Below the pieces are notes generated by a model that searched no databases, was not told where the DNA came from, and saw only the letters and a list, made by a program, of their open reading frames with translations. Below, in pieces: positions 31,890-63,120 of a stretch of 64,000 nucleotides of DNA. Source of the stretch: Candidatus Methanoperedens sp. BLZ2 (GTDB lineage: Archaea; Halobacteriota; Methanosarcinia; Methanosarcinales; Methanoperedenaceae); NCBI RefSeq assembly GCF_002487355.1, contig NZ_NTMG01000017.1, forward strand, positions 62,001 to 126,000. The letters are read 5' to 3'. Positions within the stretch are counted from its first letter, which is position 1. Each line of letters starts with the position of its first letter. The translations under genes and the position numbers were made by a program.

Positions 31890-32936
31890 TTAACTTACTA
31901 CAAACTCCCCCTTTCCAAAACTTGTACGATCCCCCAAACCTCTTAGCAGCTCTGCCATTGCAAACGCATTAAAAAACTCTGGAACAGCATCAGTTACCTG
32001 ATATCTAAATCTTGTACCTCTTGAAATAACACTCTTTGGCGCTTCAAATCTGGGTTTTCCTGTTTTTACTTTCAGGTCAAGAAAACTCAAATTGACAAGA
32101 AGTTCGACTGGTTTTTCTATATGCGTTATTTTCGGATCTTTATACTGCGTGAAATCAGGATCAAAGAACTTTGCTGCATTCTTCGTATCTCTTACAATAT
32201 CCTCACCTGACAGCGGGAAGCTGCTGAGAGTATCAGAGAAAAGATGAATCCACATTTTCCCGTCTTCATCTCTCACTATCTGAGAAATGATTTTTGCTCT
32301 CTTTTTGATATCTTCCATCGTAATAGGCACTATTGTCAATTTCTTGAGGATGACCTTACCCAATCCCTTTGAGTTCCGCTTGCCGATATATAAACCATTG
32401 TCTTCAACATATTTCAAGGCTGAGATAAATTCTGCCAGGTATTCTTCATTGAGCTTTTCCTCTTGGGCGCTTTTTGCCTTCATGTTGAAAATCGCTTCGA
32501 ACCTGAACCTGTTTTTGCTTGAGATTACATCAGTCGTGTACATATTCCTGACAGTTCCTCCAATGCCAAGCGATATTCCAGCCATCGGCTGTCTCAAAGC
32601 AGGATATTTATCGATATGCAGGCATTCACAACATTCGTAAACCACCTGTCTTATGCCTTTATCCAATTTAACTACAGGAATAAAAATGCCGTCATGATGT
32701 TTTATCAGCGCGTCCCTGAAATAGATAACAGGATGTCCATTCTCAAGAGTGTCTGCGATCTTGCTTTTCATTTCAAGAAAAAGATATCCGAATGCTCCCC
32801 TGAGATTCTGTCCTAAAGGGTAGATATCGCTTGCTTTTATCCGTGATCCCCTTTCATTATATGTATTATTTGTGGCTATATGCAACTCTGATTGGTTTTC
32901 AAGTTCTCCCTGTATTTTAAAAGCCAGCGGCTTCAT
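31890..32936 (-). CDS. RAMP-superfamily protein with two glycine-rich loops (type III CRISPR-like)
   Basis: This 348-residue protein seems to consist of two RRM-like RAMP halves. RAMP glycine-rich loops are visible as RNSKGLGKVIL (about 190) and GDRTSFGKGEFVV at the C-terminus (about 335-347). An N-terminal ASDIYPLGQNLRGAFGYLF segment (about 35-53) resembles the core of Csm/Cmr/Csx10-type subunits. These proteins bind crRNA or target in type III effectors, but here only one other RAMP gene accompanies it. It overlaps that gene (ATGA). Exact subfamily is uncertain; Cas6-like or Csx10-like are alternatives. Confidence 0.7.
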   Translation of the reverse strand: MKPLAFKIQGELENQSELHIATNNTYNERGSRIKASDIYPLGQNLRGAFGYLFLEMKSKIADTLENGHPVIYFRDALIKHHDGIFIPVVKLDKGIRQVVYECCECLHIDKYPALRQPMAGISLGIGGTVRNMYTTDVISSKNRFRFEAIFNMKAKSAQEEKLNEEYLAEFISALKYVEDNGLYIGKRNSKGLGKVILKKLTIVPITMEDIKKRAKIISQIVRDEDGKMWIHLFSDTLSSFPLSGEDIVRDTKNAAKFFDPDFTQYKDPKITHIEKPVELLVNLSFLDLKVKTGKPRFEAPKSVISRGTRFRYQVTDAVPEFFNAFAMAELLRGLGDRTSFGKGEFVVS

Positions 32937-47900: not shown

Positions 47901-48101
47901 TCATCTTCCAAGGATTTCAAGTATCTGCTTTGGAGTCACGATTTTTATCCCCCGGAATTCCTTAACATCAAGAAGATGTTTGTTGCCTGAAACCAGATAA
48001 TCTACCTCACCTTCAACAGCACACTCCAATATCCTGTCATCTGCAGGATCCTTAACAATAACGTTCAAAGTGAACGCCTGGTTCAGGTTTTGTGAAATGT
48101 T
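47901..48101 (-). pseudogene. 5'-truncated PIN-domain toxin
   Basis: The minus strand encodes the C-terminal 66 codons of a VapC/COG1569-type PIN protein: DPADDRILECAVEGEVDYLV, then SGNKHLLDVKEFRGIKIVTP and a natural TGA. A TAA immediately upstream closes the frame and the N-terminal half with the first catalytic Asp is missing. No antitoxin remains. The rest of 47806-48492 has only the repeat copy at 48261 and nothing else recognisable. Confidence 0.65.
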
Positions 48102-48492: not shown

Positions 48493-51414
48493 GTGTTTAG
48501 TTTGAAAAATGATACAATACCGCATACACCTGATAACTTCGAAACTATTAGACAAAATAATAATCAATTTCTCAGCCCTGGTTCCATAATTAAAAACCAT
48601 TCCAGATTATGGCGGGTTGATGAAGTTTCTGATGATGTTCTGACCGCAACAAGTATTGACGGTGGAAATACAATACATCGCAGATTTCTAATCCCATTAG
48701 AAGATATAAAACCAGGGAATCTTGAAGCCCCAAATCCAGAAATAATAGGCAACATCTCGGCTCAAGATTTGATGTTAAGAGCCTTTAAACTCAGTATGCT
48801 TCATGGAACTGCTCCCCTTATGAGTCTTCAAAGAAGCCGTGTAATTCCAACTCAATACCAGCTTGTTCCTGTTGTAATGTCCCTTGAAATGCCAAAAGTA
48901 AGGATGCTTATAGCAGATGATGTTGGTCTTGGAAAAACCATAGAAGCAGGGCTTATCATTACAGAATTGCTCGGAAGGCAGCAGGCAACAAGGTTATTGG
49001 TTATCTGCCCTGCAAATCTACGTGAGCAATGGCAAGAAGCTCTGGAGCATTTCTTTCACATTGATGCTAAAATAATCTCCACGCGGCATCGCCGTGAAAT
49101 GGAGAGATTACTTCCGCCCGGCACTAATCCTTGGGAATACTATCCTTTTCTGATAACTTCATTGGATTATGCCAAAATGCCCCAAATAAAAGTCCAGATA
49201 TTGGAGCTGAATTGGGACATAGTTTTGATTGATGAAGCTCATAATGTTGCAAAGCCCCATCAGGCATCTGCCGAACAGAAAATCAAGATGGATCGCTGGG
49301 AGCTTGCTGAAGCAATTTCCAAAATAGCAAAGCATTTGCTACTCCTTACTGCAACTCCACACAATGGGTATACAGATACATATGCAAGTCTCATCCGAAT
49401 GCTTAATGTGGACGCAGTTTCGGGACTGCCTCATGAACCTATAATTAACAGAGACATTGCTAAGTCATATATTTGTCAGCGTAGGCGGAAAGATGTTGAA
49501 GATTGGTTCAAGAAATCATCAACTGAAAAGAGTCCTTTTCCTGAAAGAGATCAGAATGAAATTTACCGCCCTTTATCAGATGCACAGCGAATATCCATAG
49601 AAAAAGTTGATGAACTCGGTAATTACATTCTTAATGTTGCTGAAAAGGAAAGTGCATACAGAAGAAGGCTTGCTAGATGGGTGGTCATGCATTTCCATAA
49701 ACGTTCACTGAGTTCTCCCCGTGCATTGGTGCTTTCACTTGAAAATAGATTGAGAAAATATGAGGAAAAAAAGAAGATATATGAGGAAGGAGAAGAGGAC
49801 AGTGCTGGTATAACTGAGGATGATGCAAGAGCAAATGTTTTAGATCATGATACAGGCGAGAAAACCACAGACGAAGAAACAGGATCTCGATCTGAGCGAA
49901 TAACTTTTGGAGACAAAGCTGCTCAAGAAAGGGAAGTAGCACTTTTGAAAGAGGTTCTTGAGTATGCCAGAAAAGTAACTCCGGCTAAGGATAATAAACT
50001 TCAGGACTTGCTTGAAAACCAGCTTCGTGAGAGACTTAAGACGTATCCAAGAGTGATAATATTTACCCGATATAAGGATACACTGGATTATCTTGAGGGC
50101 AATATAAAAAATTCATCCCGCTACAGAGATATTCCGATTATTACAATAGATGGCTCTTTGAATGAATTGCAAAGAAAAGAGAAATTCAAAGATTTCGAAT
50201 CTTCGAAAACGGCCATTTTGATTGCTACGGATTGTATTTCTGAAGGTATTAATCTTCAGGCTGCATGCAATCAATTAATTCACTATGAACTTCCATGGAA
50301 CCCGAATAGATTAGAGCAAAGAAACGGTAGAATAGATAGATACGGGCAGAAAGAATCGAAAGTTTATATTCGGACTCTGGTAATGAAAGATACCCTTGAG
50401 GCAGCGATTTTAAAGATTCTTGTCCAAAAGGCAGACCAAATACGGAAAGATTATGGCTTTTCTCCTCCATTTTTTGGTGATGATGTTTCTGTTCTGGATT
50501 TAATCAGGGAAAAGGGACTTCAGGTCAATGTAGGCCAGAGGACTCTTGATGATTTCTATCAAGCTGTGGAGGTGAAAAAGGGAAGTGCAAATCCCTTCTC
50601 AGATGAATCAATTCAAAAAATCAAAAGTGAAAGCTTCTATGGAAAGACTGAAATAGATTTAGTGGAAGTCCAACAGAAACTTAAGGAAACAGAAAGGGCA
50701 ATCGGCAGCAGCGAACAGATAGAACATTTTGTCAGGAGCTCTCTGAATAAGCTAAACTGCACTCTAATTGAAAAGTCTTCTGAAATATTTAACATTGAAA
50801 TTACAGATAATCGCCTCAAAACTAGATTTGGCAATAAGATTGAAAATGCAACATTCAATCCAAAATGTGCTTTTGTTGATCCATCTCTTGAAGTGATTGA
50901 TCTGGGACATTCTCTTGTCCGCCAGTTGACAGAACTGGTGAAACAGTCAACATTTGTTGATTCCTCTAGCTATGGAAGAACGGCTACAATGAAAACAGAT
51001 GCCGTAAAGCAAACTACTGCGCTGTATAACGTTATAGCGCGGTATGTAGTGCAAACCAGACCTGTTTCCATTATTGAAGAGATTATCCCGATAGCTGTAG
51101 TGCTTTATGGAGAAAATGTGTTTTCAAGAGATGAGAAAGATAAACTCATTTCAGCAAAACCAATTTCAGATAATAGAACCGCCAGAGAAAAGATTGAGGA
51201 TCTTAAGGAAGCTCTCGGAAGATGTGATCTAACAGATATAATTTTACGAAAATTGAAAGAGCGGCTCATTGAGATCTCCAGAGAACGAAAAACAATAAAA
51301 GAGCGTCTTGAGAAAAATGGAACACAGGATTGGCTGTCGGGTTTGGATAATCTCACTCTTGGCTCTAATGACTTACTGAGTGTTACATTATATTATCCTG
51401 CTCAGGTGGGGTGA
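48493..51414 (+). CDS. DrmD-like SNF2-family helicase (DISARM-like)
   Basis: This 973-residue protein has a superfamily 2 SNF2 motor. Walker A is in ADDVGLGKTIEAGLI (about 142-156), the DEAH box in LIDEAHNVAKPH (about 245), motif III in LTATPHNG (about 282), and motif VI in QRNGRIDRYGQ (about 609). The N-terminal 110 residues and C-terminal 300 residues are accessory. This architecture matches DrmD of class 1 DISARM, in which it sits next to a large adenine methyltransferase as here. The start is GTG at 48493 or TTG at 48502; ribosome-site support is poor. It overlaps the methyltransferase frame by 35 bases. Confidence 0.78.
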   Translation: MFSLKNDTIPHTPDNFETIRQNNNQFLSPGSIIKNHSRLWRVDEVSDDVLTATSIDGGNTIHRRFLIPLEDIKPGNLEAPNPEIIGNISAQDLMLRAFKLSMLHGTAPLMSLQRSRVIPTQYQLVPVVMSLEMPKVRMLIADDVGLGKTIEAGLIITELLGRQQATRLLVICPANLREQWQEALEHFFHIDAKIISTRHRREMERLLPPGTNPWEYYPFLITSLDYAKMPQIKVQILELNWDIVLIDEAHNVAKPHQASAEQKIKMDRWELAEAISKIAKHLLLLTATPHNGYTDTYASLIRMLNVDAVSGLPHEPIINRDIAKSYICQRRRKDVEDWFKKSSTEKSPFPERDQNEIYRPLSDAQRISIEKVDELGNYILNVAEKESAYRRRLARWVVMHFHKRSLSSPRALVLSLENRLRKYEEKKKIYEEGEEDSAGITEDDARANVLDHDTGEKTTDEETGSRSERITFGDKAAQEREVALLKEVLEYARKVTPAKDNKLQDLLENQLRERLKTYPRVIIFTRYKDTLDYLEGNIKNSSRYRDIPIITIDGSLNELQRKEKFKDFESSKTAILIATDCISEGINLQAACNQLIHYELPWNPNRLEQRNGRIDRYGQKESKVYIRTLVMKDTLEAAILKILVQKADQIRKDYGFSPPFFGDDVSVLDLIREKGLQVNVGQRTLDDFYQAVEVKKGSANPFSDESIQKIKSESFYGKTEIDLVEVQQKLKETERAIGSSEQIEHFVRSSLNKLNCTLIEKSSEIFNIEITDNRLKTRFGNKIENATFNPKCAFVDPSLEVIDLGHSLVRQLTELVKQSTFVDSSSYGRTATMKTDAVKQTTALYNVIARYVVQTRPVSIIEEIIPIAVVLYGENVFSRDEKDKLISAKPISDNRTAREKIEDLKEALGRCDLTDIILRKLKERLIEISRERKTIKERLEKNGTQDWLSGLDNLTLGSNDLLSVTLYYPAQVG

Positions 51415-54400
51415 TAACATTCGCAAAGACCCACTGGCTAATATAAATTCACGTGGGGGATTAATTTCATCAGATTTTCTCAAGTCATTGAGGCAGGAGA
51501 ATTTCAATAATCCCTATATCAGACCTGAGACATTCTCTGTTCCAGGCGAGCCACCTCTGACCCAAAAGCAGCTTAATGAGCAGATGATTTCAGCGTGGCA
51601 AGAGCTTTTAGAGCGCTGGGATGAATTTTCTTTCAATGTGCAAAATAAGGATACTACAGAAGCTAGAAAAAAATGGATTCTTCCAATCTTACGGATTCTA
51701 GGATTTAAACCAGTGTATCAGCCACAGGATATTGTAATTTCTGAAGATAAACGGCTCAAGTTCAATATTTTATACCGAGGTTTCCCTGAAGAGCGCGATC
51801 CAATGATCCATGCAGTCTCCCCTTCAGAGGATCTTGATGTGCGGAATGGTAATGATAGAAATGAGAAAAGTCCGCATGACACCCTCCAGATTTTTCTTAA
51901 TGTAGATAAAAAGAGCCAGTGGGGATTACTTACTAATGGTATACTCCTGCGGATTTTAAGGGATTTCTATCATACATCCACAAAGGGATATGTGGAATTT
52001 GACCTTGAGAATATCTTCACCGAGAGAAGTTTTTCAGATTTCCGTGCACTCTATCGCATGGTTCATGCCAGCCGTTTCTCTAAAAATGGGGATAATACTA
52101 TAATTCTGGAACATTTTTATAAAGAAAGCTGCGCAGCAGGAGTCAAGGTCGGCGAGGATCTGCGAGGTAATGTTAAACTAGCAATTGAAACCCTTGGCAA
52201 CGGCTTTCTAACCGAAGATCTCGTACAGCGTATGATTTCTGATGAAAAATTCTGCAAAGAATATTATGAAGAACTGCTGACATTGACTTATCGTATCCTA
52301 TTTTTGTTATTCGAAGAACAGAGAGGCATACTGCCAAGCCGCGATTCCCTGTACGCCGAGGAATACAGCATTACAAGTCTCAGGGAACGGGCTGAGAATT
52401 TCAAAATCAATGATAAGTATGCAGATATATGGTATGGATTAAAGGTTACTTTCAAAATATTAAAGAAGGGATATCAGAAGCTCAATGTGTTTCCATATAA
52501 CGGCAGCCTATTTGATGATGATAGGCTGAAAACCCTTTCAGCACTTGAGTGCAAAAATGAAGACCTTCTTACTGCCGTTCATTATTTAACTTGGATTGAA
52601 AAAGACAAGGTTCTCCAGCGTATTAGCTACCTCGATCTTGGTGTTGAGGAGATTGGTTCAATCTATGAGAGCCTACTAGATTTGATTCCAAGTGTTCTAG
52701 CTCAGGATGGGGAAGTTGATGGAAAGCCTATTCGTGCCAAGACATTTTTTCTTGACTCAAGAGGTACAGCCAGAAAAACAACTGGCAGCTATTACACAGA
52801 TAAGCGTCTTGTAGATGAGCTTATCAAGAGCGCCCTGATTCCAGTGGCACAGGAAAAAATATACTCTGGGAAGACATCTCTGGAGAAAGAAAAGGCGCTT
52901 TTATCACTTCGGGTCTGCGATCCAGCATGTGGTAGTGGAGCCTTCCTGATAGCAGCCACAATGTATCTGGGGAAAGAGCTTGCCCAGATACGTACTGGTA
53001 CTGAATACCCATCAGATAAAGAGGAGCAGCGTGCAAGGCGCGAAATCCTGCAGCACTGCATCTACGGGGTGGACTTAAACCCGATGGCTGTAGAACTTGC
53101 CAAGGTATCACTCTGGATTAATGCGGTTGTAGAGGATATGCCTCTGAACTTCCTCGATCACCACATCAAATGTGGCAACAGTCTTATTGGAACGACGCCT
53201 ACACTTTTGAGTAAGGGCATACCAGATACAGCATTCACTCCTGTAGAGGGAGATGATAAAGCGGTTGCAAAAGAGATCATTAATATTAACAAGAAGCAAA
53301 AGAAAAGCCAGAGCCTTGCAGAATGGGAAACCAGGGAGGAAGATAAAAAATACATAGAAAAGTTCAACAAATTGAATGATCTTCCAGAAGATAATCCAGA
53401 GGATGTAGAAAATAAGAAAATTTGCTATAACCGGCTTATGAACAGCTACCTCTCCAATAGTCGGAAACTCATTGCTGATACCTGGACAGCTGCATTTTTC
53501 TGGCCCCTAACTAAGGAGACCAGAGATGCTCCTACTGATGGGTTTTTGCGAATGTTACGCGAGAGCGGAGAGAGCGCAGTGGATAAGAATATTCTAAATC
53601 GGGTGAAAGCACTGGCGCAGGAGTATAAGTTCTTCCACTGGTATCTTGAGTTCCCGGATGTCTTCCAGCGGGAGAGTTTTGGGTTTGACTGCGTGTTGGG
53701 AAACCCGCCGTGGGAGATCGTCAAGCCCAATTCACAGGAATTCTTCAGTTTAAAAGACCCGGAATTTCGGAGTTATACAAAACAGAAAGCAAAGAAAGTA
53801 ATGGATGAGTTACGCGAGAACAAGAAGATCGATGATGCTTGGAAAAAATACGAGCGGATTATCAATAAGCAGAGCCTATTTTATAGAGAATCAAATAGTT
53901 TTCCAAACCTTGGACGGGGAGATATTAATACATTCAAATTATTCCTTGAACAATTCTTTAAGATCTTAAAAATAGATGCTCGCTTTGGAATACTTGTACC
54001 TTCTGGAATATATACTGACCAAGGTTGCTTACAGCTAAGGAAGCTCTTCTTTGATAATTCACAGATACAGTCTCTCTACTGCTTTGAGAACAAACTTGGG
54101 ATATTTCCTATACATAGAAGTTTCAAATTCGTTCTATTTGTAACAAAGAAAGGCGGTGGGACCGATACTTTCAAAACTGCCTTCATGCTCCACGATCCAG
54201 ATATCCTACCAAGCCTTGAGAAAGATGCGTTACGTATGAGTGTCGATTCTGTGAAGAAGTTCTCACCCGATACTCTTTCGATAATGGAGTTCAAATCCCA
54301 ACACGACATTGACCTGGCTGTAAAGATTTACGGTGAACATCCATTTCTTGGAGAGTGTGTTGAGGGAGCATGGAATGTGAAGTTTACAAGAGAATTTGAT

Positions 54401-55390
54401 ATGACCAACGATAACCATTTGTTTAAAACAAAAGAAAAACTTGAGGAAGAGAGAGCTATTCCTAGATCAAATGGTATTCAATGGATCGGAAAGCGAGGTG
54501 AAAGAAATTTACCTTTATGTTTTGGCGAACATTTTTGGTTTGGCATGTTTCATAAAGAGATGATTTCACTTTGGATTGAAGAGCAACAAGGTGAAATGAA
54601 ATATTATAGAAACGAAAAATTTGATCCTGACTATTTGAAATATAGGTGTGGGGTAAGAAGAATAGCTGCAAATACAAATGAGCGGACACTCGTTACCGGA
54701 ATAATTCCGAAGGCTTTTTTTTGCACTTATGGTATGGAAACTATTACTGAATTTGAAAGGGGCAAGCGCATAGAAAATTTCTTAAATAAATATGAAAACA
54801 TCTATTTATTTTCAATTCTATCATCTTTCGTTCTTGATTATATTTTGAGACAAAAAGGTGGAATGACATCTGTACCTATATCATATCTTAATGAACTTCC
54901 TATCCCCCGCTTCACCTCCGGCAACTGGTATTTTGACCAACTTGTCCCTCGCGCTGCTCGCCTCATCTGCATCACCGAGGAGTTCGCAGACCTCTGGAAT
55001 GAGGTTTACTGTCCTGAATGGAACCTCTTATCAGTCAAGGATGGAGGCACAAGTATACTTGAAGACTGGAGCAAACTCACGCCCGTATGGAATAAAGAGT
55101 GCGGTGCCTACGGATGGAATAAGACAAAGCACGATACCGGGGATAGGGCGCAGCTTCGATGCGAGATAGATGCATTAGTGGCTCATTTGTATGGATTGAA
55201 TAAAGAGGAGTTTGAGCATATTCTTTCTACTTTCCCGATTGTGAAAGAGAAATCTCCAAGATTGATTGAGGGTACTATAAAAGAATTTGATCGATTTGAA
55301 AGCATTAAAAGAGGGTCAGCTGATAAAGAAGAATTTGTTGAGCTATTATCTATAGGAAAAAGAGGTGCCCTTATAAAAAATCGAGGTTGA
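51380..55390 (+). CDS. DrmMI-like N6-adenine DNA methyltransferase
   Basis: This 1336-residue gamma-class adenine methylase of the Eco57I/COG1002 type has the SAM motif VCDPACGSGAFLIAATMYLG (about 512-531), GVDLNPMAVELAKVSLWI (about 560) and the catalytic VLGNPPWEIVKP (about 771-782). A long C-terminal target-recognition part follows, e.g. RIAANTNERTLVTG near 1095. The N-terminal 450 residues may be a helical or degraded nuclease-like region; I see no clear PD-(D/E)xK triad. It should mark self DNA for the flanking helicases. The first start in frame is a GTG overlapping DrmD; the true start may be a little further in (about 51407-51600). Confidence 0.8.
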   Translation: MLHYIILLRWGDNIRKDPLANINSRGGLISSDFLKSLRQENFNNPYIRPETFSVPGEPPLTQKQLNEQMISAWQELLERWDEFSFNVQNKDTTEARKKWILPILRILGFKPVYQPQDIVISEDKRLKFNILYRGFPEERDPMIHAVSPSEDLDVRNGNDRNEKSPHDTLQIFLNVDKKSQWGLLTNGILLRILRDFYHTSTKGYVEFDLENIFTERSFSDFRALYRMVHASRFSKNGDNTIILEHFYKESCAAGVKVGEDLRGNVKLAIETLGNGFLTEDLVQRMISDEKFCKEYYEELLTLTYRILFLLFEEQRGILPSRDSLYAEEYSITSLRERAENFKINDKYADIWYGLKVTFKILKKGYQKLNVFPYNGSLFDDDRLKTLSALECKNEDLLTAVHYLTWIEKDKVLQRISYLDLGVEEIGSIYESLLDLIPSVLAQDGEVDGKPIRAKTFFLDSRGTARKTTGSYYTDKRLVDELIKSALIPVAQEKIYSGKTSLEKEKALLSLRVCDPACGSGAFLIAATMYLGKELAQIRTGTEYPSDKEEQRARREILQHCIYGVDLNPMAVELAKVSLWINAVVEDMPLNFLDHHIKCGNSLIGTTPTLLSKGIPDTAFTPVEGDDKAVAKEIININKKQKKSQSLAEWETREEDKKYIEKFNKLNDLPEDNPEDVENKKICYNRLMNSYLSNSRKLIADTWTAAFFWPLTKETRDAPTDGFLRMLRESGESAVDKNILNRVKALAQEYKFFHWYLEFPDVFQRESFGFDCVLGNPPWEIVKPNSQEFFSLKDPEFRSYTKQKAKKVMDELRENKKIDDAWKKYERIINKQSLFYRESNSFPNLGRGDINTFKLFLEQFFKILKIDARFGILVPSGIYTDQGCLQLRKLFFDNSQIQSLYCFENKLGIFPIHRSFKFVLFVTKKGGGTDTFKTAFMLHDPDILPSLEKDALRMSVDSVKKFSPDTLSIMEFKSQHDIDLAVKIYGEHPFLGECVEGAWNVKFTREFDMTNDNHLFKTKEKLEEERAIPRSNGIQWIGKRGERNLPLCFGEHFWFGMFHKEMISLWIEEQQGEMKYYRNEKFDPDYLKYRCGVRRIAANTNERTLVTGIIPKAFFCTYGMETITEFERGKRIENFLNKYENIYLFSILSSFVLDYILRQKGGMTSVPISYLNELPIPRFTSGNWYFDQLVPRAARLICITEEFADLWNEVYCPEWNLLSVKDGGTSILEDWSKLTPVWNKECGAYGWNKTKHDTGDRAQLRCEIDALVAHLYGLNKEEFEHILSTFPIVKEKSPRLIEGTIKEFDRFESIKRGSADKEEFVELLSIGKRGALIKNRG

Positions 55391-55522
55391 AATTTCTTAT
55401 TTGATAAGAATCTATTTTTTCAATATTAACATGAACATTATGAACTGACACACAATAATATTTAAGTCCGAATAAGAATATCTAAAGTATAATTATCATG
55501 ATCATTATATCGAGACTTAAAC

Positions 55523-58500
55523 ATGATGAACCCATTTGAAGCTTTGGAATATGTGCAGGATATCTACAAAACCTATGTATTTACTTTTCAGAAATTCAAA
55601 AATCCAACAATCCAGAACTGGGTTCATGACAGAATAGGGGAAGGGACCCTTCTCTGGAAAGAGCCATTTATCCAGCTTAACCGAAGGTTCGAGAAGGGAG
55701 ATACTCTTCAGGAATTGATCTATAGGGGGTTACTTCATCCAGGAGTTCTCAAAGTCTTCACAAAGAAAGCTGGTGACAGGAATGCTGAACCTGTCTCTCC
55801 TTATAAACATCAGAGCGATGCGATCCGCTCGATCCTTGCCGATGGAGAAAATACTGTAGTTACAACTGGCACAAGCTCAGGCAAGAGCTTCACATTTTAT
55901 ATGCCAATAGTAAGCGAATGCCTGAAGATGAAAGATGCGGGGCTTTCGGGAATAAAAGCAATCATTGTTTATCCGATGAACGCACTTGCCAATTCCCAGT
56001 ACGAAGACATGGCAAACCGCCTCCAGAATTCGGGATTGAGAATTACATTATACACAGGCGATACAAAGAACAGCCTGGATGAGGCAAAATCCACTTTTCT
56101 TGAGACAACAGGTAGAAAAGAACCCTGGGATAGCGAAGTTCTATCGCGCCATGAGATTCAGAGCAATCCACCGGATATTCTTTTGACTAACTATGTCATG
56201 CTTGAGCTTCTTCTAACAAGGTTTGAAGACCGCGCACTTTTCCCGCCTGAACACAAGGGAAGATTGAAATTTCTTGTACTTGACGAAGTGCATACATATT
56301 CAGGGAAAAAAGGAGCAGATGTTGCCTGCCTCATCCGGAGGCTGAAACAGCATACAGGTACAATTGGAACATTGCGATGCATCGGAACAAGCGCTACAGT
56401 CCAGAGTGCAGAGGGCGAGGATGCCAGAGAGTTGATTGCAGAGTTTGCAAAAGATCTTTTTAGTGAAACTTTCACGAAAGAACATATTATTGGCGAAACC
56501 TACGTGCCTATAAATGAAGTGTCTCCTGATACTTTGCCGCCAAATATCCTTGTTACCGATAAGATGCTGAAGGAATTTGATGGATCGGTTGATAAAGCCG
56601 CGGTATTGGTCGGTGCATTAATCGCAAGAACCCTTACCCCGGCAGAAACCACATCTGAAGGTTTAGGGATTCTCCTTGGAAATCAAGCTACAATTCATTT
56701 TATCGAAAAAGCCCTGTCGGATAACACAAAAACAAAAAAAGACCTTGCAGAGATTTATCAGAAACAATATAGACCTGCAACAGATCTACGCTCGTGCATA
56801 AGAGAGATTGAAGCTGCTATACTGGCAGGATCAGTAGCAACAATAAATATTCTTGGAGTCCAGCAACCCAGATTTGTACCCAAGCTTCATACCTTCTTCT
56901 CACAGGGAAGAACCATCACAAGCTGTTTGACAGACAGCGGTCCTCACCTTAATGATCGAGGAGAAATCACCTGTCCGGAATGCGCCAAGAGCCAGAAAAT
57001 AAAATATACATTCCCGCTTCTTTTTTGCAGGGCATGTGGGCAGGAATTCTACAGCGTTTCCATATCAGAAGATGGAGTAGTCATGCCGAGAGATATTGAT
57101 ACTCCAGATACAGAAGGGCAAAATGTCTATCTATATCCTGGGATTCATAATGAAGCAGCAGTTCATTTCCCTGAGGAATGGGTAACTGAAAAAGGAGTTC
57201 TGAAAACAAAGCTTGCCGAGCTTGAGCCTAAAGCAGTCATTTATTGCCCGGACTGTAATAAGGTGGATTCAAATTGCACATGCAAAGATAAGAGAAAGAT
57301 CTCCTCAATCCCATCCCCTTTCCAGTTCTGTCCATCCTGCGGCGTTCACTATGATAAAAGGCCGCGAGAATTCAACAAGCTTTTTTCCTTCGGTACGGTG
57401 GGGCGCAGCACTGGAACTGATATAATTGTTTCAGGCATGTTGACAAGACTTCCTGCAGATGAAAAAAAGATAATCGCATTCAGTGATAACAGACAGGATA
57501 CAGCTCTACAGGCTGCCCACATGAATAATCTTCAAAAAAGAATACATTTCCGCAGGGGTATCTATCGTGCTCTTCTTGAAGGAAATTATATTGAAGGTCA
57601 GAGTGGGGTGGATATATCAGATGTTGGATTAAAGGTTTTCAAAATAAATGAAAAGTACAATGTTATGCCGGAATATTCAAGAGAAAAAGGCAGATTCCGT
57701 AAAAATACTTCTGCTGATGACCATTATATTCGTTATCTCCATCATAGTATGATCTCAGACATGTCCGCATCAACCCGGCGAAATCAACAAAACCTTGAAG
57801 ATGTGGGTCTTTTGAAAGTTATATACAATGGGCTGGATAAACTTGCAGCTGCAAATGATATATGGTCAAAAGTACCTGCAATGAACGCTGTATCAGAGAA
57901 CATTAGATATGATTATTTGACTGGATTCTTAGACATATTCAGAAAACAAATGGCGATTCAGGATGAGTCTTTAACTAATCCAGTAAATTTTAAATTCGAA
58001 CATATAGATAAGCTCAATGAAAACTGTCTTTTTGACATAAATCCATATGGAGGAAAACCAATTGGCTTCAGTGATGATGCTTCTACAAAAGGAAGAGATG
58101 CAAGAGTTCTTCGACTGACATCTTCAAAGAGCAGATTGGTTCAGTGGACAAAGAGAGCTTTAGGACTTGAAGTCGAAGAGTCTAAAAATGTTGTAAAAGA
58201 AATTGTCAGAATATTATCCAGTGAAGAGGCAGGATACTTAGTAGAACACACAGTAAAAAATGTGGGAAAAATTTACATGGTTCCATCAAAAGGTACGATA
58301 ATTATTCAGGGGATAAAAAACACACAGCAAAAGGTCTGTCCAAAATGCGGCAATGTTTTCCACTTTAATGAATTAAATATATGCACCGGTTCAAGCTGCG
58401 GTCAGCTTAGAACAGACGATTTTTCAAAGAATTATTTCAGGAAAGTTTATACTCAGGACTTTAATGAATCAACAAGAATCGAGGCAGGAGAACACAGTGG

Positions 58501-60745
58501 TCAAATCGATGGAATAACGAGAAAGAAGATTGAAGCTGACTTTAGAAGTAAGAACAGTTCACTCAATGCTTTGATCTGTACTCCTACGATGGAACTGGGC
58601 ATCGACATAGGTGATTTATCTGCTATATATATGCGAAATGTGCCTCCATCTCCAAGCAATTATGCTCAAAGAGCTGGTAGAGCTGGTCGAAAGAACCAGC
58701 CTGCAATAGTATCAACCTTCTGTGGCGTTGGAACTATGCGCGGACCTCACGATCAATATTTCTACCGGTATCCTGAAAAAATCATATCTGGTAAGATCAG
58801 TCCACCGCGGTTCTTGCTTGATAACCGTCCACTTATAATTTCCCACATTAATTCTCTTGTACTTGAGACCATCCAGACAAGATTACCGATCAGACCCTCC
58901 GAAATTTTGAATATTGAGGAAGGTGGATTCCCGTTTTTTGAGAATTTGAAAGAAGAATTTGAAGACAAAATCGAACAGAGCAGAATCAACATAATTACTG
59001 CTGTACAAGATGCATTTAAGAGTGAAATATCAACATTTGAATGGTTTAATGATGAGTTCATTGGTAAGGAAATTGATAATTTCATAGAAAAGTTAGATAA
59101 AGCCTTTGAATACTGGAGAAGAGAGTATGGTAATCTGTTTCATGAAGTCCAAGACATAAATTATAAAGCACAAAGATCATCACCAAATAAAGAAACGCAA
59201 GATCGCAGGAAAGCGATAGAGGCTAAACTTGAGAATATGCGCAGAGGTGAAAAGGAATTCTACACGTATCGTTATCTTGGTACTCAGGGCTTCTTACCAA
59301 ACTATGGTTTTCCAAGTTCCAGTACAGTCCTTTCATTTTATACCAGTGATGATGAAATTCAAAGAGATAAAGTTCTTGCAATAAGAGAATTTGCTCCCGG
59401 TAATAGCATATATTTTAAAAATAACCGCTATCTTGTATCCTTTGCAAGGCCCAGAACTGAAAAACAAAGACCTATAAGAGAAAAATTAATCATTTGTTCG
59501 AAATGTAATACTGCCCTTCTAGGTGAACATGCAAATCAGGCAAGTGCCTGCCCAAGATGTGGAAATTCATTTGTTGGACTTCATCCCAACCCGAATGCAA
59601 TGCAGATGCCAGATATGCTCGCTATTTCACCGCATAGAATTACAAGTGATGAAGAAGAACGGATGAGGTTAGGGTATGCTGTTTCAACGCATTATGAAAT
59701 GGGAGACAAGATTAACAGATTTTCTGTATCATCAAAGGAAGGAGTTTCTTTTGAAATAGAATATGAACACAATGGAAAAATCATAACTATTAATAAGGGA
59801 ACACGAAAAAGTCAACAAGATGGTCAAGATACAGGTTTTATACTTTGCTCTGTCTGCAATAGATGGCTTTTCGGAGAAGACAGAATCAATGATCATATCA
59901 AAGAAGATTCTCAGAGACCTTGTCCAAAAAATGCTACTGAAGATGATATAATAAAAAATATAAATCTTTATACTGATGGAATCCATGATGTAGCTGCATT
60001 GAATATTCCTCTCCCTGCTGATATTGACCAGAGCGTCAGCGAAAGTTTCTATGTCACATTAAAGGAGAGTATCCTTCAGGGAATCCAAGTTACACTCAAT
60101 GTAGATGAAAATGAGATTGATGGCATAATAATTCCAAATCCAGCACATGAGTATGAATTTTCAATAATTTTGTATGAAACCGCGCAAGGGGGAATAGGGG
60201 CAATAAAGGCACTGACAGATCAAAATCGTTTCAATGAAATAATCAAGAGGACGCTTGAATTGTTACATGATATAGAGCCTGAAAGAGATGGGTGTGACAG
60301 GGCTTGTTATGAATGTCTGCTTAATTTTTATAACCAGATCGAACATGAAAAAATGGATCGGCATCTTGTGATTCCCTTCCTGAGAAAATTAACAAACGCA
60401 TCCATTCAACCATTGAGCATCAGTAAGTCTGGAAAAACTCTTGACGAATTTCTGAACAAATGCCAATCAAATTTCGAACGTAATGTGCTTAAGGAGATTC
60501 AAAAAAGAAACATTAACTTACCTGATGAAGCTCAGAAGATAATATCGGATAAAGATATACCGATAGCATCGGCAGATTTCTTCTATAAACCTAATATAGT
60601 TGTTTTCATTGATGGAAGTCCGCATGAAAAAGATTATGTGCAAAAAGCTGATGAGGAAAAGCGCCGGAAGTTGAAGGCGGTTGGTTATAGGGTTATTTCG
60701 ATTAAGAAAATGGATGATGTTGAGGGATTAAGGGAAATCGTTTAG
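55523..60745 (+). CDS. giant DEAD/DEAH helicase with DUF1998 and C-terminal PD-(D/E)xK-like domain (DrmA/DrmB-like fusion)
   Basis: This 1740-residue protein belongs to the YprA/MrfA-like COG1205 helicases. Walker A TGTSSGKS is at about 115, DEVHTYSGKKGAD at about 253, GTSATV at about 288, and motif VI QRAGRAGRKNQ at about 1048. Scattered zinc pairs (CPEC/CRAC, CPDC/CPSC, CPKC, CSKC/CPRC) are present. The DUF1998-type end has ETAQGGIGAIKAL (about 1552) and CDRACYECLLNFYNQ (about 1592). The last 100 residues look like a nuclease: FERNVLKEIQKR, IASADFFYKPNIVVFIDGSP, RRKLKAVGYRVISIKK. Class 1 DISARM has separate helicase, DUF1998 and phospholipase-D genes; here they appear merged, with a different nuclease. 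The start is ATG 55523 or 55526. Confidence 0.78.
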   Translation: MMNPFEALEYVQDIYKTYVFTFQKFKNPTIQNWVHDRIGEGTLLWKEPFIQLNRRFEKGDTLQELIYRGLLHPGVLKVFTKKAGDRNAEPVSPYKHQSDAIRSILADGENTVVTTGTSSGKSFTFYMPIVSECLKMKDAGLSGIKAIIVYPMNALANSQYEDMANRLQNSGLRITLYTGDTKNSLDEAKSTFLETTGRKEPWDSEVLSRHEIQSNPPDILLTNYVMLELLLTRFEDRALFPPEHKGRLKFLVLDEVHTYSGKKGADVACLIRRLKQHTGTIGTLRCIGTSATVQSAEGEDARELIAEFAKDLFSETFTKEHIIGETYVPINEVSPDTLPPNILVTDKMLKEFDGSVDKAAVLVGALIARTLTPAETTSEGLGILLGNQATIHFIEKALSDNTKTKKDLAEIYQKQYRPATDLRSCIREIEAAILAGSVATINILGVQQPRFVPKLHTFFSQGRTITSCLTDSGPHLNDRGEITCPECAKSQKIKYTFPLLFCRACGQEFYSVSISEDGVVMPRDIDTPDTEGQNVYLYPGIHNEAAVHFPEEWVTEKGVLKTKLAELEPKAVIYCPDCNKVDSNCTCKDKRKISSIPSPFQFCPSCGVHYDKRPREFNKLFSFGTVGRSTGTDIIVSGMLTRLPADEKKIIAFSDNRQDTALQAAHMNNLQKRIHFRRGIYRALLEGNYIEGQSGVDISDVGLKVFKINEKYNVMPEYSREKGRFRKNTSADDHYIRYLHHSMISDMSASTRRNQQNLEDVGLLKVIYNGLDKLAAANDIWSKVPAMNAVSENIRYDYLTGFLDIFRKQMAIQDESLTNPVNFKFEHIDKLNENCLFDINPYGGKPIGFSDDASTKGRDARVLRLTSSKSRLVQWTKRALGLEVEESKNVVKEIVRILSSEEAGYLVEHTVKNVGKIYMVPSKGTIIIQGIKNTQQKVCPKCGNVFHFNELNICTGSSCGQLRTDDFSKNYFRKVYTQDFNESTRIEAGEHSGQIDGITRKKIEADFRSKNSSLNALICTPTMELGIDIGDLSAIYMRNVPPSPSNYAQRAGRAGRKNQPAIVSTFCGVGTMRGPHDQYFYRYPEKIISGKISPPRFLLDNRPLIISHINSLVLETIQTRLPIRPSEILNIEEGGFPFFENLKEEFEDKIEQSRINIITAVQDAFKSEISTFEWFNDEFIGKEIDNFIEKLDKAFEYWRREYGNLFHEVQDINYKAQRSSPNKETQDRRKAIEAKLENMRRGEKEFYTYRYLGTQGFLPNYGFPSSSTVLSFYTSDDEIQRDKVLAIREFAPGNSIYFKNNRYLVSFARPRTEKQRPIREKLIICSKCNTALLGEHANQASACPRCGNSFVGLHPNPNAMQMPDMLAISPHRITSDEEERMRLGYAVSTHYEMGDKINRFSVSSKEGVSFEIEYEHNGKIITINKGTRKSQQDGQDTGFILCSVCNRWLFGEDRINDHIKEDSQRPCPKNATEDDIIKNINLYTDGIHDVAALNIPLPADIDQSVSESFYVTLKESILQGIQVTLNVDENEIDGIIIPNPAHEYEFSIILYETAQGGIGAIKALTDQNRFNEIIKRTLELLHDIEPERDGCDRACYECLLNFYNQIEHEKMDRHLVIPFLRKLTNASIQPLSISKSGKTLDEFLNKCQSNFERNVLKEIQKRNINLPDEAQKIISDKDIPIASADFFYKPNIVVFIDGSPHEKDYVQKADEEKRRKLKAVGYRVISIKKMDDVEGLREIV

Positions 60746-61128
60746 GATTATAGATTAATTATAGTCCCCTGCTGTCTGGCAGCGCATTTCTATTCCTTGA
60801 TAAATTCTTTCAAGCTTCTTTTCGGCACAACGTACACGGAATCTAATCACAAGCTCCCAAACTGATCCTCGCGGGCACAGGCAAGACCACAACCATCACT
60901 GCAAAAATCGCGTACATGGTCAAAGGAAAACATCGACCCCTCCCAGATCCTCGCGCCAACCTTCTCCAAAGAAGCAGCAAGGAACATGCGCGAAAAAGTC
61001 GAGAAACTCCTTCAATGAAAGGAGATCCATGCAAACCTTCCATAATTTCTACGCCAGGATCATTTAGACAAATACAGTAATAGAAAATTATTAATATTTG
61101 TGTAATCATACTCTCACTCAACAAGAGT
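60746..61128. other. gene-free stretch with UvrD relic and AbiE promoter
   Basis: It holds the UvrD relic (60863-61018) and the left arm of the inverted repeat at the AbiE start. On the minus strand near 60800-60845 an open phrase SVYVVPKRSLKEFIKE followed by a stop looks like the tail of a lost gene. No intact gene is seen. Confidence 0.5.
60863..61018 (+). pseudogene. UvrD-helicase relic A (left of AbiE)
   Basis: The plus strand reads LILAGTGKTTTITAKIAYMV and, after a +1/-1 frame slip, ENIDPSQILAPTFSKEAARN then MREKVEKLLQ and a TGA. This is the Walker A to motif Ia segment of a UvrD/Rep helicase (normally LAGAGTGKT; one residue lost). Nothing of the rest of the gene is present. Relic B (62946-63120) covers the same segment. 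Confidence 0.72.
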
Positions 61129-61141
61129 ATGATTACACAAA
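61097..61141. promoter_or_regulatory. long inverted repeat containing the AbiEi start codon
   Basis: TTTGTGTAATCATACTCT (61097-61114) and its exact complement at 61124-61141 are 18-bp arms separated by 9 bases. The AbiEi ATG (61129) lies inside the right arm. As DNA it fits the paired-site operator bound by AbiEi antitoxins; as RNA it would be a very stable hairpin sequestering the start codon. Confidence 0.75.
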
Positions 61142-61944
61142 ACATAAAACTAGGGGCGAACGAACTAAAGTTACTGTTCACTATAGAAGAAGAGAATAAA
61201 TCCGTTTTTTCAATAACCGATGCAAGGCGAGTTATGAAAACCTCTGCGCCCTCTGTCTGGAATGTCATATACCGTTTGAAGAAAAAGGGAAGGATAGAAG
61301 AGATAGAAAAAGGAAAATACCTTCTCATTCCGGCAAGAGCAGGTTATGAGGGATCATGGTCCGAAGTCCCATATCTGCTTGTTCCTCATATCATAAGTGC
61401 TTATTACATCGGTTTCTGGACAGCACTTAACTACTGGAGTATGACAGAGCAGGTTCCCAATGTTGTATTCGTTGCAACAACACAGAGAAAAAAAGATTTA
61501 GAATTTGGAGATACGCGATACGAATTTGTCACATTGACGAAAAAGAGATTTTTCGGATATGTGGAAGAAAATACCGCCAGAGGTACTTTCAATATATCTT
61601 CAAGGGAGAAAACCATCATTGACTGCATGTTATTTCCAAAATACTGCGGCGGGCTGGATGAAGCTGTCAAAGGGATATGGAAAGCCAGAGATGAACTGGA
61701 CTTTGTAAAGCTGCTTGAGTACTCAAAACGGATGGAGGTGAGCGTGGTTACCAGAAGGATAGGTTATGCATTGGAATTACTGGGGCTGGCAGAGGAAATA
61801 AGTTCTAAGATCGCTTCTTATAGATCAAAAGGATATATGTGGCTTGACCCTCTTGGACCCAAGGAAGTTCTGGAATACTCCAAAAAATATGGACTCATAA
61901 TAAATAGGACAAAGGATGAATTGACGGGCTGGATGGAGTATTGA
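61129..61944 (+). CDS. type IV antitoxin AbiEi
   Basis: This 271-residue protein has an N-terminal winged helix (SITDARRVMKTSAPSVWNVIYRLKKKGRIEEIEKG, about 30-64). The AbiEi C-terminal domain follows: HIISAYYIGFWTALNYWSMTEQ (about 84-105), SSREKTIIDCMLFPKYCGGLDE (about 160-181) and RRIGYALELLGL (about 205-216). AbiEi represses its own operon and neutralises the partner nucleotidyltransferase. Its ATG is inside an 18-bp inverted repeat. It overlaps abiEii by ATGA. The operon sits just behind the DISARM-like island and between two UvrD relics. Confidence 0.85.
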   Translation: MITQNIKLGANELKLLFTIEEENKSVFSITDARRVMKTSAPSVWNVIYRLKKKGRIEEIEKGKYLLIPARAGYEGSWSEVPYLLVPHIISAYYIGFWTALNYWSMTEQVPNVVFVATTQRKKDLEFGDTRYEFVTLTKKRFFGYVEENTARGTFNISSREKTIIDCMLFPKYCGGLDEAVKGIWKARDELDFVKLLEYSKRMEVSVVTRRIGYALELLGLAEEISSKIASYRSKGYMWLDPLGPKEVLEYSKKYGLIINRTKDELTGWMEY

Positions 61945-62738
61945 AAATGGATGAAAATGATTTAAGAAGGCGAGCCAGGAGGACGGGTTTCAACGTGGCT
62001 ACCCTGGAAAAAGATTACGCTCTGACATGGCTTCTTAGCGGGATTTACTGGGAGGATTCAAAGCTCAGAGATATCCTGATATTTAAAGGAGGGACAGCAA
62101 TACGAAAAATTTACTTTCCTGAATGGCGCCTTTCCGAGGATATGGACTTCACTATCATGCAGGAAGTTGATCCTTCGGAGTTGAAACAGGGTTTTGAGCA
62201 GGTTTTCTCATCTATTAACAAGAAAAGCAGCATCATTTATTCGTTCACTTCTTTTAATGCAGGAGAGCATGCTATTTTTGCTGATGTCCAGTTCCTGGGC
62301 CCTATTGGATTCAAGAATAAGATCGCACATGACATATCCCTGAAAGAAAAAATGATTGAAAAGCCCACGCGGATAAAAGTGAAGCCTGAATATGAGGATA
62401 TTCCGGAATTTGAAGTACTTGTTTATTCGCCAAATGAAATCATGGTGGAAAAGCTGCGCAGCATCCTTCAGAGGGGGAAGGCGCGGGATTATTACGATGT
62501 CTGGCGGCTTATGAAAGAAAAAGAGTTCAATCCGGATAAGATCAGAGAACTTTTCATCCTGAAATGCCAGATCACTGGGATTGAGTTCAACCCTGAACTG
62601 ATCTTTGATGAAAACAGGCTCTCTGAAGCAAAAAAGTTCTGGACTATCGCTCTTGCCAGACTTACAAAGAACCTTCCTGATTTCGAGTCAGTCGTGAATG
62701 ATTTGAGGTTGATGCTGGATTTTATCAAAGTGAAATAG
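61941..62738 (+). CDS. type IV toxin, nucleotidyltransferase AbiEii/AbiGii family
   Basis: This 265-residue toxin contains all AbiEii motifs: motif I FKGGTAIRKIYFPEWRLSEDMDF (split as FKGGTAIRKIY and RLSEDMDF, about 49-70), motif III-like YSPNEIMVEKLRSILQRGKARDYYD (about 155-180) with the Lys and the ARDYYD aspartate, and a helical C-terminus. Related toxins add nucleotides to tRNA 3' ends or bind GTP and cause reversible growth arrest or phage abortive infection. It overlaps abiEi by ATGA in the canonical antitoxin-first order. Appears complete. Confidence 0.87.
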   Translation: MKMDENDLRRRARRTGFNVATLEKDYALTWLLSGIYWEDSKLRDILIFKGGTAIRKIYFPEWRLSEDMDFTIMQEVDPSELKQGFEQVFSSINKKSSIIYSFTSFNAGEHAIFADVQFLGPIGFKNKIAHDISLKEKMIEKPTRIKVKPEYEDIPEFEVLVYSPNEIMVEKLRSILQRGKARDYYDVWRLMKEKEFNPDKIRELFILKCQITGIEFNPELIFDENRLSEAKKFWTIALARLTKNLPDFESVVNDLRLMLDFIKVK

Positions 62739-62945: not shown

Positions 62946-63120
62946 CAACTAATCCTCGCAGGCGCATGATCTGGCAAAATCATCACCATCACCACCAAGA
63001 TCACATACCTAATCGAAGATGAAAACATCGACCTCCCCAGCCTCAAGCTCACGTTCTTCAAAGAAATCGCAAGAAACATGCGCAAAAAAGTCGAGAAGCC
63101 CCTCGGAGAAAAGAATTGAT
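62946..63120 (+). pseudogene. UvrD-helicase relic B (right of AbiE)
   Basis: The plus strand reads QLILAGA, stop, SGKIITITTKITYLIEDENI then DLPSLKLTFFKEIARNMRKK and VEKPLGEKN stop. It is the same UvrD Walker A to motif Ia segment as relic A, with an in-frame TGA inside the P-loop and more substitutions, and ends at nearly the same residue. Both relics are in direct orientation around the AbiE operon. Confidence 0.72.

Follow-up and report, generated by a model that had tools for sequence, protein, structure and literature searches.

Three intact open reading frames lie between positions 48493 and 60745 of the window (the whole stretch of 64,000 nucleotides analysed here, from a source genome of 3.7 Mb in 85 contigs), all on the + strand and with no other gene in between (Table 1). 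We refer to their products as ArmA, ArmB and ArmC. The ORF check confirmed the lengths, the strand and the uninterrupted arrangement given in a first-pass annotation of the locus. The ArmA and ArmB frames overlap by 35 bp, and 132 bp separate ArmB from ArmC; the GTG start of ArmB may be slightly off.

Table 1. Features of the three-gene operon and of the adjoining AbiE pair, in window coordinates
Feature	Position	Strand	Details
ArmA-like RapA/BrxHII/DrmD-type SNF2 helicase	48493..51414	+	973 aa, GTG start
SNF2 ATPase lobe of ArmA, residues 121-309	48853..49419	+	Pfam PF00176
Helicase_C lobe of ArmA, residues 503-618	49999..50346	+	Pfam PF00271
ArmB-like PglX/DrmMI/Eco57I-type adenine-specific DNA methylase	51380..55390	+	1336 aa, GTG start
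N-terminal domain of ArmB, residues 55-240	51542..52099	+	
Methylase core of ArmB, residues 460-801	52757..53782	+	Pfam Eco57I/N6_Mtase
Variable C-terminal half of ArmB, residues 800-1336	53777..55390	+	
ArmC-like YprA/DruE-family helicase-nuclease	55523..60745	+	1740 aa
RecA1 (DEAD) lobe of ArmC, residues 95-294	55805..56404	+	Pfam PF00270
Helical insert after ArmC RecA1, residues 300-482	56420..56968	+	AF2 model
RecA2 (Helicase_C) lobe of ArmC, residues 980-1057	58460..58693	+	Pfam PF00271
MZB/DUF1998 zinc-binding domain of ArmC, residues 1514-1599	60062..60319	+	Pfam PF09369
Predicted EDxHD/Vsr-DUF559-type nuclease domain of ArmC, residues 1608-1740	60344..60742	+	E1652, D1685, D1697, H1701, D1710
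AbiEi/AbiEii toxin-antitoxin pair	61097-62738		downstream of ArmC

Pfam matched SNF2 and Helicase_C in ArmA, an Eco57I/N6-methylase domain in ArmB, and DEAD, Helicase_C and MZB (the MrfA Zn-binding domain, which is the DUF1998 region) in ArmC. Key motifs of all three proteins are intact: K148 and D247EAH in ArmA, invariant or nearly so across 50 homologues; the SAM motif D514PACGSG and the catalytic N775PPW in ArmB, invariant or nearly so among relatives; and the helicase motifs K121 and D254EVH in ArmC. Among relatives, the ATPase and methylase motifs of the three proteins are near-invariant. Domains and motifs agree with the earlier description of an SNF2 helicase, an adenine methylase and a helicase with DUF1998, the helicase core and DUF1998 of the third being joined in one protein.

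Directly after the RecA1 lobe, ArmC carries an insert that AF2 models as mostly helical (residues 300-482, pLDDT 88). The 2025 preprint that introduced the antiviral system ARMADA places a BrxA-like domain at this position (PMC12458937); Foldseek with this good model returned no significant PDB fold match, BrxA included.

The AbiE pair, which the first-pass annotation does not mention, begins 384 bp downstream of ArmC. An 18-bp perfect inverted repeat (61097-61141) overlaps the AbiEi start and is likely its autoregulatory operator. We considered AbiEi and AbiEii as fourth and fifth genes of the operon and rejected this, given the 384-bp gap, the pair's own inverted repeat and the lack of an AbiE match near any of 92 related loci; the pair is a module separate from the ARMADA genes. 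Imperfect direct repeats (60926-61011 and 63021-63103, about 79-89% identical and 2.09 kb apart) flank it; they may be remnants of a duplicated stretch and may mark the route by which AbiE was inserted.

A 1154-aa molybdopterin oxidoreductase that has a TAT-signal match is encoded elsewhere in the window, which also carries genes for multihaem cytochromes, for two proteins of the prismane (Hcp-like) kind and for an archaeal protein with DUF2114; the host is likely a Methanoperedens-like nitrate-reducing methane oxidiser. A protein encoded at 31893-32936 has a weak RAMP-superfamily match (E 2e-4) and is a possible CRISPR-type component.

Methylase and nuclease domains

Upstream of D195, no D, E or K is conserved at 85% or more among 45 aligned ArmB proteins. 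Because conserved PD-(D/E)xK residues are missing from it, the N-terminal domain of ArmB is probably not an active nuclease, and we rejected it as a nuclease candidate; this leaves the end of ArmC as the sole predicted nuclease found in the operon. The remainder of ArmB is unevenly conserved. Compared with five relatives, its methylase core is 44-58% identical and its C-terminal half 22-31%, as expected if the C-terminal half reads the target site; residues 800-1336 are therefore a candidate target-recognition region.

Queried as a single sequence, the C-terminus of ArmC matched DUF559 barely at the Pfam cut-off. Among 41 homologues of residues 1608-1740, DUF559 was matched in 33 and MTES_1575, a REase family, in 31. 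A profile of this region, compared with PDB sequences, matched I-Bth0305I (3r3p, E 0.005) and, at E 0.01, the endonuclease-like protein 3hrl; the scores of Vsr structures were not significant. In line with the profile, the AF2 model of the region (pLDDT 88) has as its best Foldseek match the catalytic domain of I-Bth0305I (probability 1.00, E 0.004, TM to target 0.62), which we take to be an EDxHD/Vsr-fold enzyme; VRR_NUC domains rank lower, at insignificant E-values. The predicted catalytic residues are retained almost throughout the 79 aligned relatives (E1652 in 74, D1685 in 78, D1697 in 78, H1701 in 72 and D1710 in 77). These results are in keeping with an active nuclease of the EDxHD type within the PD-(D/E)xK superfamily. 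The first-pass annotation had suspected a domain of PD-(D/E)xK-like layout at the end of the third protein, and the DUF559/MTES_1575 matches, the nuclease fold of the model and the conserved residues all uphold this.

Family placement and inheritance

Among PADLOC models, ArmC scores best with DruE1 (429 bits) and DruE3 (428 bits) and reaches 54 bits with DrmA. ArmA scores best with DrmD (405 bits), followed by DrmA, DpdE, HmaA and BrxHII models (294 to 271 bits), and ArmB with DrmMI (318 bits). No DISARM model of NCBIfam reaches its cut-off for the operon's proteins: ArmA obtains 432 bits with DrmD, below the cut-off of 610, and ArmC obtains 21 bits with DrmA against a cut-off of 999.

According to Bell et al. 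(2025; PMC12458937), ARMADA systems combine two genes common to DISARM class I with a DruE-like YprA helicase, and type I has an ArmC fused to a Vsr-like nuclease, an archaeal gene order and no ArmD. The operon displays each of these features. Its YprA homologue is nearer to DruE than to DrmA (429 versus 54 bits) and ends in a Vsr-type PD-(D/E)xK nuclease predicted to be active, its genes follow the archaeal order of BrxHII-like, PglX-like and YprA-like, and no ArmD lies beside ArmC, the next ORFs being AbiEi and AbiEii. There is no difference of substance between the published type I (PMC12458937) and this operon, whose host is a probable Methanoperedens relative.

The phylogeny points the same way. 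Our first contig scan, with a single-protein query, found no loci; an alignment-based scan found 80. In the ArmC tree (77 proteins, with Druantia represented by Druantia III of E. coli, Marinobacter and Sinorhizobium and without Druantia I and II), the operon's ArmC groups with an ANME-2 copy inside a clade of 55 rows (SH-aLRT 99), whose readable neighbourhoods hold ArmA and ArmB; type I rows were recognised by gene set and absence of ArmD. Outside this type I clade fall type II (9 rows), Druantia III and its relatives (7 rows) and the MrfA-type proteins, those of the source genome and related genomes being far outside; a further small set of three rows (L053, L054, L166) also stands apart. 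The ArmA tree agrees with the ArmC tree in separating type I from type II. All three genes are present in 30 of the 31 loci that have more than 8.5 kb on both sides, so that the set is not a chance one. Over the full set of 80 loci, the orders that could be read were C-A-B (33), A-B-C (15) and two others.

The 55-row clade itself splits in two. One half is centred on archaea (methanogens, ANME, haloarchaea and Asgard archaea, plus Thermus, Bacteroidota, Chloroflexota and Elusimicrobia) and carries the A-B-C order; the other is mostly bacterial. For shared rows the ArmA tree repeats this division, which indicates that the ArmA and ArmC genes travel together. Cyanobacterial A-B-C loci fall in the other type I clade, outside the archaea-centred one (L079-L158 and plasmid loci). 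A-B-C, which is the order of type II too, may be the older arrangement. As far as we know, the two-clade split is absent from the preprint (PMC12458937). One might go further and regard the archaea-centred A-B-C clade, which branches deeply beside the remaining type I systems in the ArmC and the ArmA tree alike, as an ARMADA class of its own, made up of three proteins and acting in a distinct way, and here guarding a methane-oxidising archaeon against viruses or large extrachromosomal elements; we hold this to be possible but doubtful.

Several related loci depart from the common layout. On a Thermus plasmid (L037), a type I-like set is preceded by BrxL, has a NYN-domain gene inserted between ArmA and ArmB, and is followed on the ArmC side by a 3'-5' exonuclease; a type III-A CRISPR locus adjoins. 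The ARMADA type I methylase of Deinococcus radiodurans MP1 (L039) is annotated as two consecutive ORFs and is perhaps broken. ArmC relatives also occur on 12 viral-collection contigs (L159-L170), several with the whole operon and four with the ArmD-containing type II arrangement. Three loci in genomes from the phylum of the source genome (L057, L058, L059) encode a YprA-family helicase of 1607-1644 aa without the C-terminal nuclease, near Druantia III, with no ArmA or ArmB match within the retrieved stretch. In the source genome, an MrfA-type helicase (L076, G000:C49:63000-69000) is in two frames (620 and 258 aa) and is possibly frameshifted.

The closest relative of the operon belongs to another family of the same order (G387, L041). 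Its ArmC is 89% identical, compared with 68% for the available end of its ArmB (93 aa), a hint that methylase specificity evolves more quickly than the helicase does. The differences between the two ArmC genes are concentrated at third codon positions (486, versus 120 and 73 at the others), with dN 0.056, dS 0.60 and dN/dS about 0.09; purifying selection on ArmC is strong. Among the listed genomes of the same genus, neither ArmC nor an MZB match to an ArmC was found, and ArmB has matches in two other genomes only. Upstream of window position 48077, the DNA matches two same-genus genomes at 93-97% identity, and beyond that position it diverges. Since the similarity stops there, we place the left island edge near 48077; on the right, where L077 holds further unclassified ORFs, no unique downstream match marks an edge. 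Its rarity in the genus and the end of upstream similarity at 48077 make the operon look like an island gained by horizontal transfer.

These data bear directly on the first-pass proposal of a compact class 1 DISARM, composed of drmD, drmMI, a fused drmA-drmB and a nuclease replacing drmC. DrmD and DrmMI are indeed the best PADLOC models for ArmA and ArmB, and the homologous SNF2 helicase and PglX-like methylase are common to DISARM class I and ARMADA according to the preprint (PMC12458937). The defining protein, however, is DruE-like rather than DrmA-like, and both DrmD and DrmA fall short of their curated cut-offs. In DISARM class 1 the YprA helicase is split into DrmA and DrmB, DrmA being only remotely similar to ArmC, whereas at this locus we found one protein in place of a separate DrmA helicase and DrmB DUF1998 protein. 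The one-protein layout is the usual state of the YprA family and DISARM the branch that splits the helicase, according to the preprint (PMC12458937), so that the presumed drmA-drmB fusion is the rule in this family and DISARM the exception. DISARM class 1 also usually adds the PLD protein DrmC (typical, not essential), and no PLD domain occurs among the scanned operon and neighbouring proteins, just as the first-pass annotation had it. Finally, the clade with the ArmA-ArmB-ArmC gene set already has a separate name. Of the original proposal the three-gene defence-type operon stands and the DISARM membership does not: family scores and the published clade structure led us to reject it as very unlikely.

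Membership in Druantia, with ArmC as DruE and the other genes as accessories, would accord with the best PADLOC models of ArmC (DruE1 and DruE3) and with the statement by Bell et al. (PMC12458937) that ARMADA YprA proteins are closest to Druantia. DruE of Druantia III (DruH-DruE) is likewise a YprA-family helicase with a C-terminal nuclease, but that nuclease is of the PLD type, the ArmC C-terminus being Vsr/DUF559-like. Druantia III further has DruH as partner, lacks a methylase and an SNF2 helicase, and lies on a separate branch; here there is no DruH-type partner (STY4851 family), the partners are ArmA and ArmB, and ArmC stands apart from the Druantia III proteins in a tree without Druantia I and II. 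Tree and partner genes together led us to reject this extremely unlikely reading. The same two lines of evidence reject a DNA-repair helicase operon of the housekeeping MrfA/YprA kind, an explanation we find scarcely credible. ArmC has in common with MrfAB (YprAB) the RecA1-RecA2-DUF1998 (MZB) architecture, but MrfAB forms a distant housekeeping branch with a separate exonuclease, MrfB; the source genome and its relatives own separate MrfA-type proteins far outside the ArmC clade, and the operon is rare among the listed same-genus genomes. This agrees with the first-pass view that the third protein is no housekeeping helicase. A different division of labour would apply if the locus acted as a BREX- or type IIG-like modification system, in which a methylase complex blocks replication and the helicase-nuclease is accessory. 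ArmB is PglX/type IIG-like, and mutation of NPPW in the ARMADA II methylase abolishes defence (PMC12458937). Against this, the N-terminus of ArmB has no conserved nuclease residues and those of ArmC are near-invariant, from which we argue that cutting matters; we consider the modification model unlikely.

The operon is thus a well-supported, functional-looking further example of the class described in 2025 and no new DISARM variant. With a probability of roughly 0.8, we read it as ARMADA type I, complete and in the archaeal order ArmA-ArmB-ArmC, in which ArmB would mark self and the helicase-nuclease would destroy DNA. The analysis itself shows which genes are present and that their motifs are intact, the fold and catalytic residues of the nuclease, the family to which the proteins belong, their joint inheritance and the purifying selection.

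Proposed mechanism and significance

In the mechanism that we propose for this ARMADA type I system, ArmB would methylate adenine at a short DNA site and so mark host DNA, and incoming DNA without the mark would be engaged by both helicases, ArmA and ArmC. ArmC would load on the DNA and unwind it or translocate (3'-to-5' in characterised YprA-family enzymes), the DNA would be remodelled via the DUF1998 canopy, and the Vsr-like nuclease at the C-terminus would cut the strand, such that the invading DNA is destroyed and the cell survives. The probable task of ArmA, a translocase resembling RapA and BrxHII, is to remodel DNA or the methylase complex or to pass one of them on. By analogy, we infer that archaeal type I works like type II, that methylation is the self mark and that the steps follow this order.

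Protection against viruses has been demonstrated for type II, which in E. coli wards off 13 of 80 phages directly and non-abortively and depends on NPPW in ArmB and on the ATPase motifs of both helicases, ArmA and ArmC (PMC12458937). Because type II defence needs the methylase motif, methylation in ARMADA may do more than mark self. The type II systems of E. coli NCTC 12900 and ATCC 8739 have the order A-B-C and proteins homologous to ours at 22-37% identity over the aligned parts. By contrast, they lie on a separate branch, their ArmC is longer (2113 aa, versus 1740 aa here), and they possess a fourth, essential gene, ArmD (UvrD/GajB-like with a RelE domain), whose absence from the operon counts against a like mechanism. 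DruE, a related helicase-nuclease, is loaded on DNA with a 3' tail and, given ATP and Mg, cuts long DNA (PMC13192584). In a review from 2026, the mechanism by which ARMADA restricts is given as unknown (PMC12904381).

Starting from one unannotated locus, the analysis independently confirms that a probable methane-oxidising archaeon has the full ARMADA type I layout and that selection on it is strong. Phylogenetically, the three-gene form without ArmD is the wider form of ARMADA. The near-invariant nuclease residues provide exact mutations for probing the ArmC nuclease as effector, and the haloarchaeal plasmid copies (Haloquadratum, Natrinema) could open the system to genetics in an archaeal host that can be cultured.
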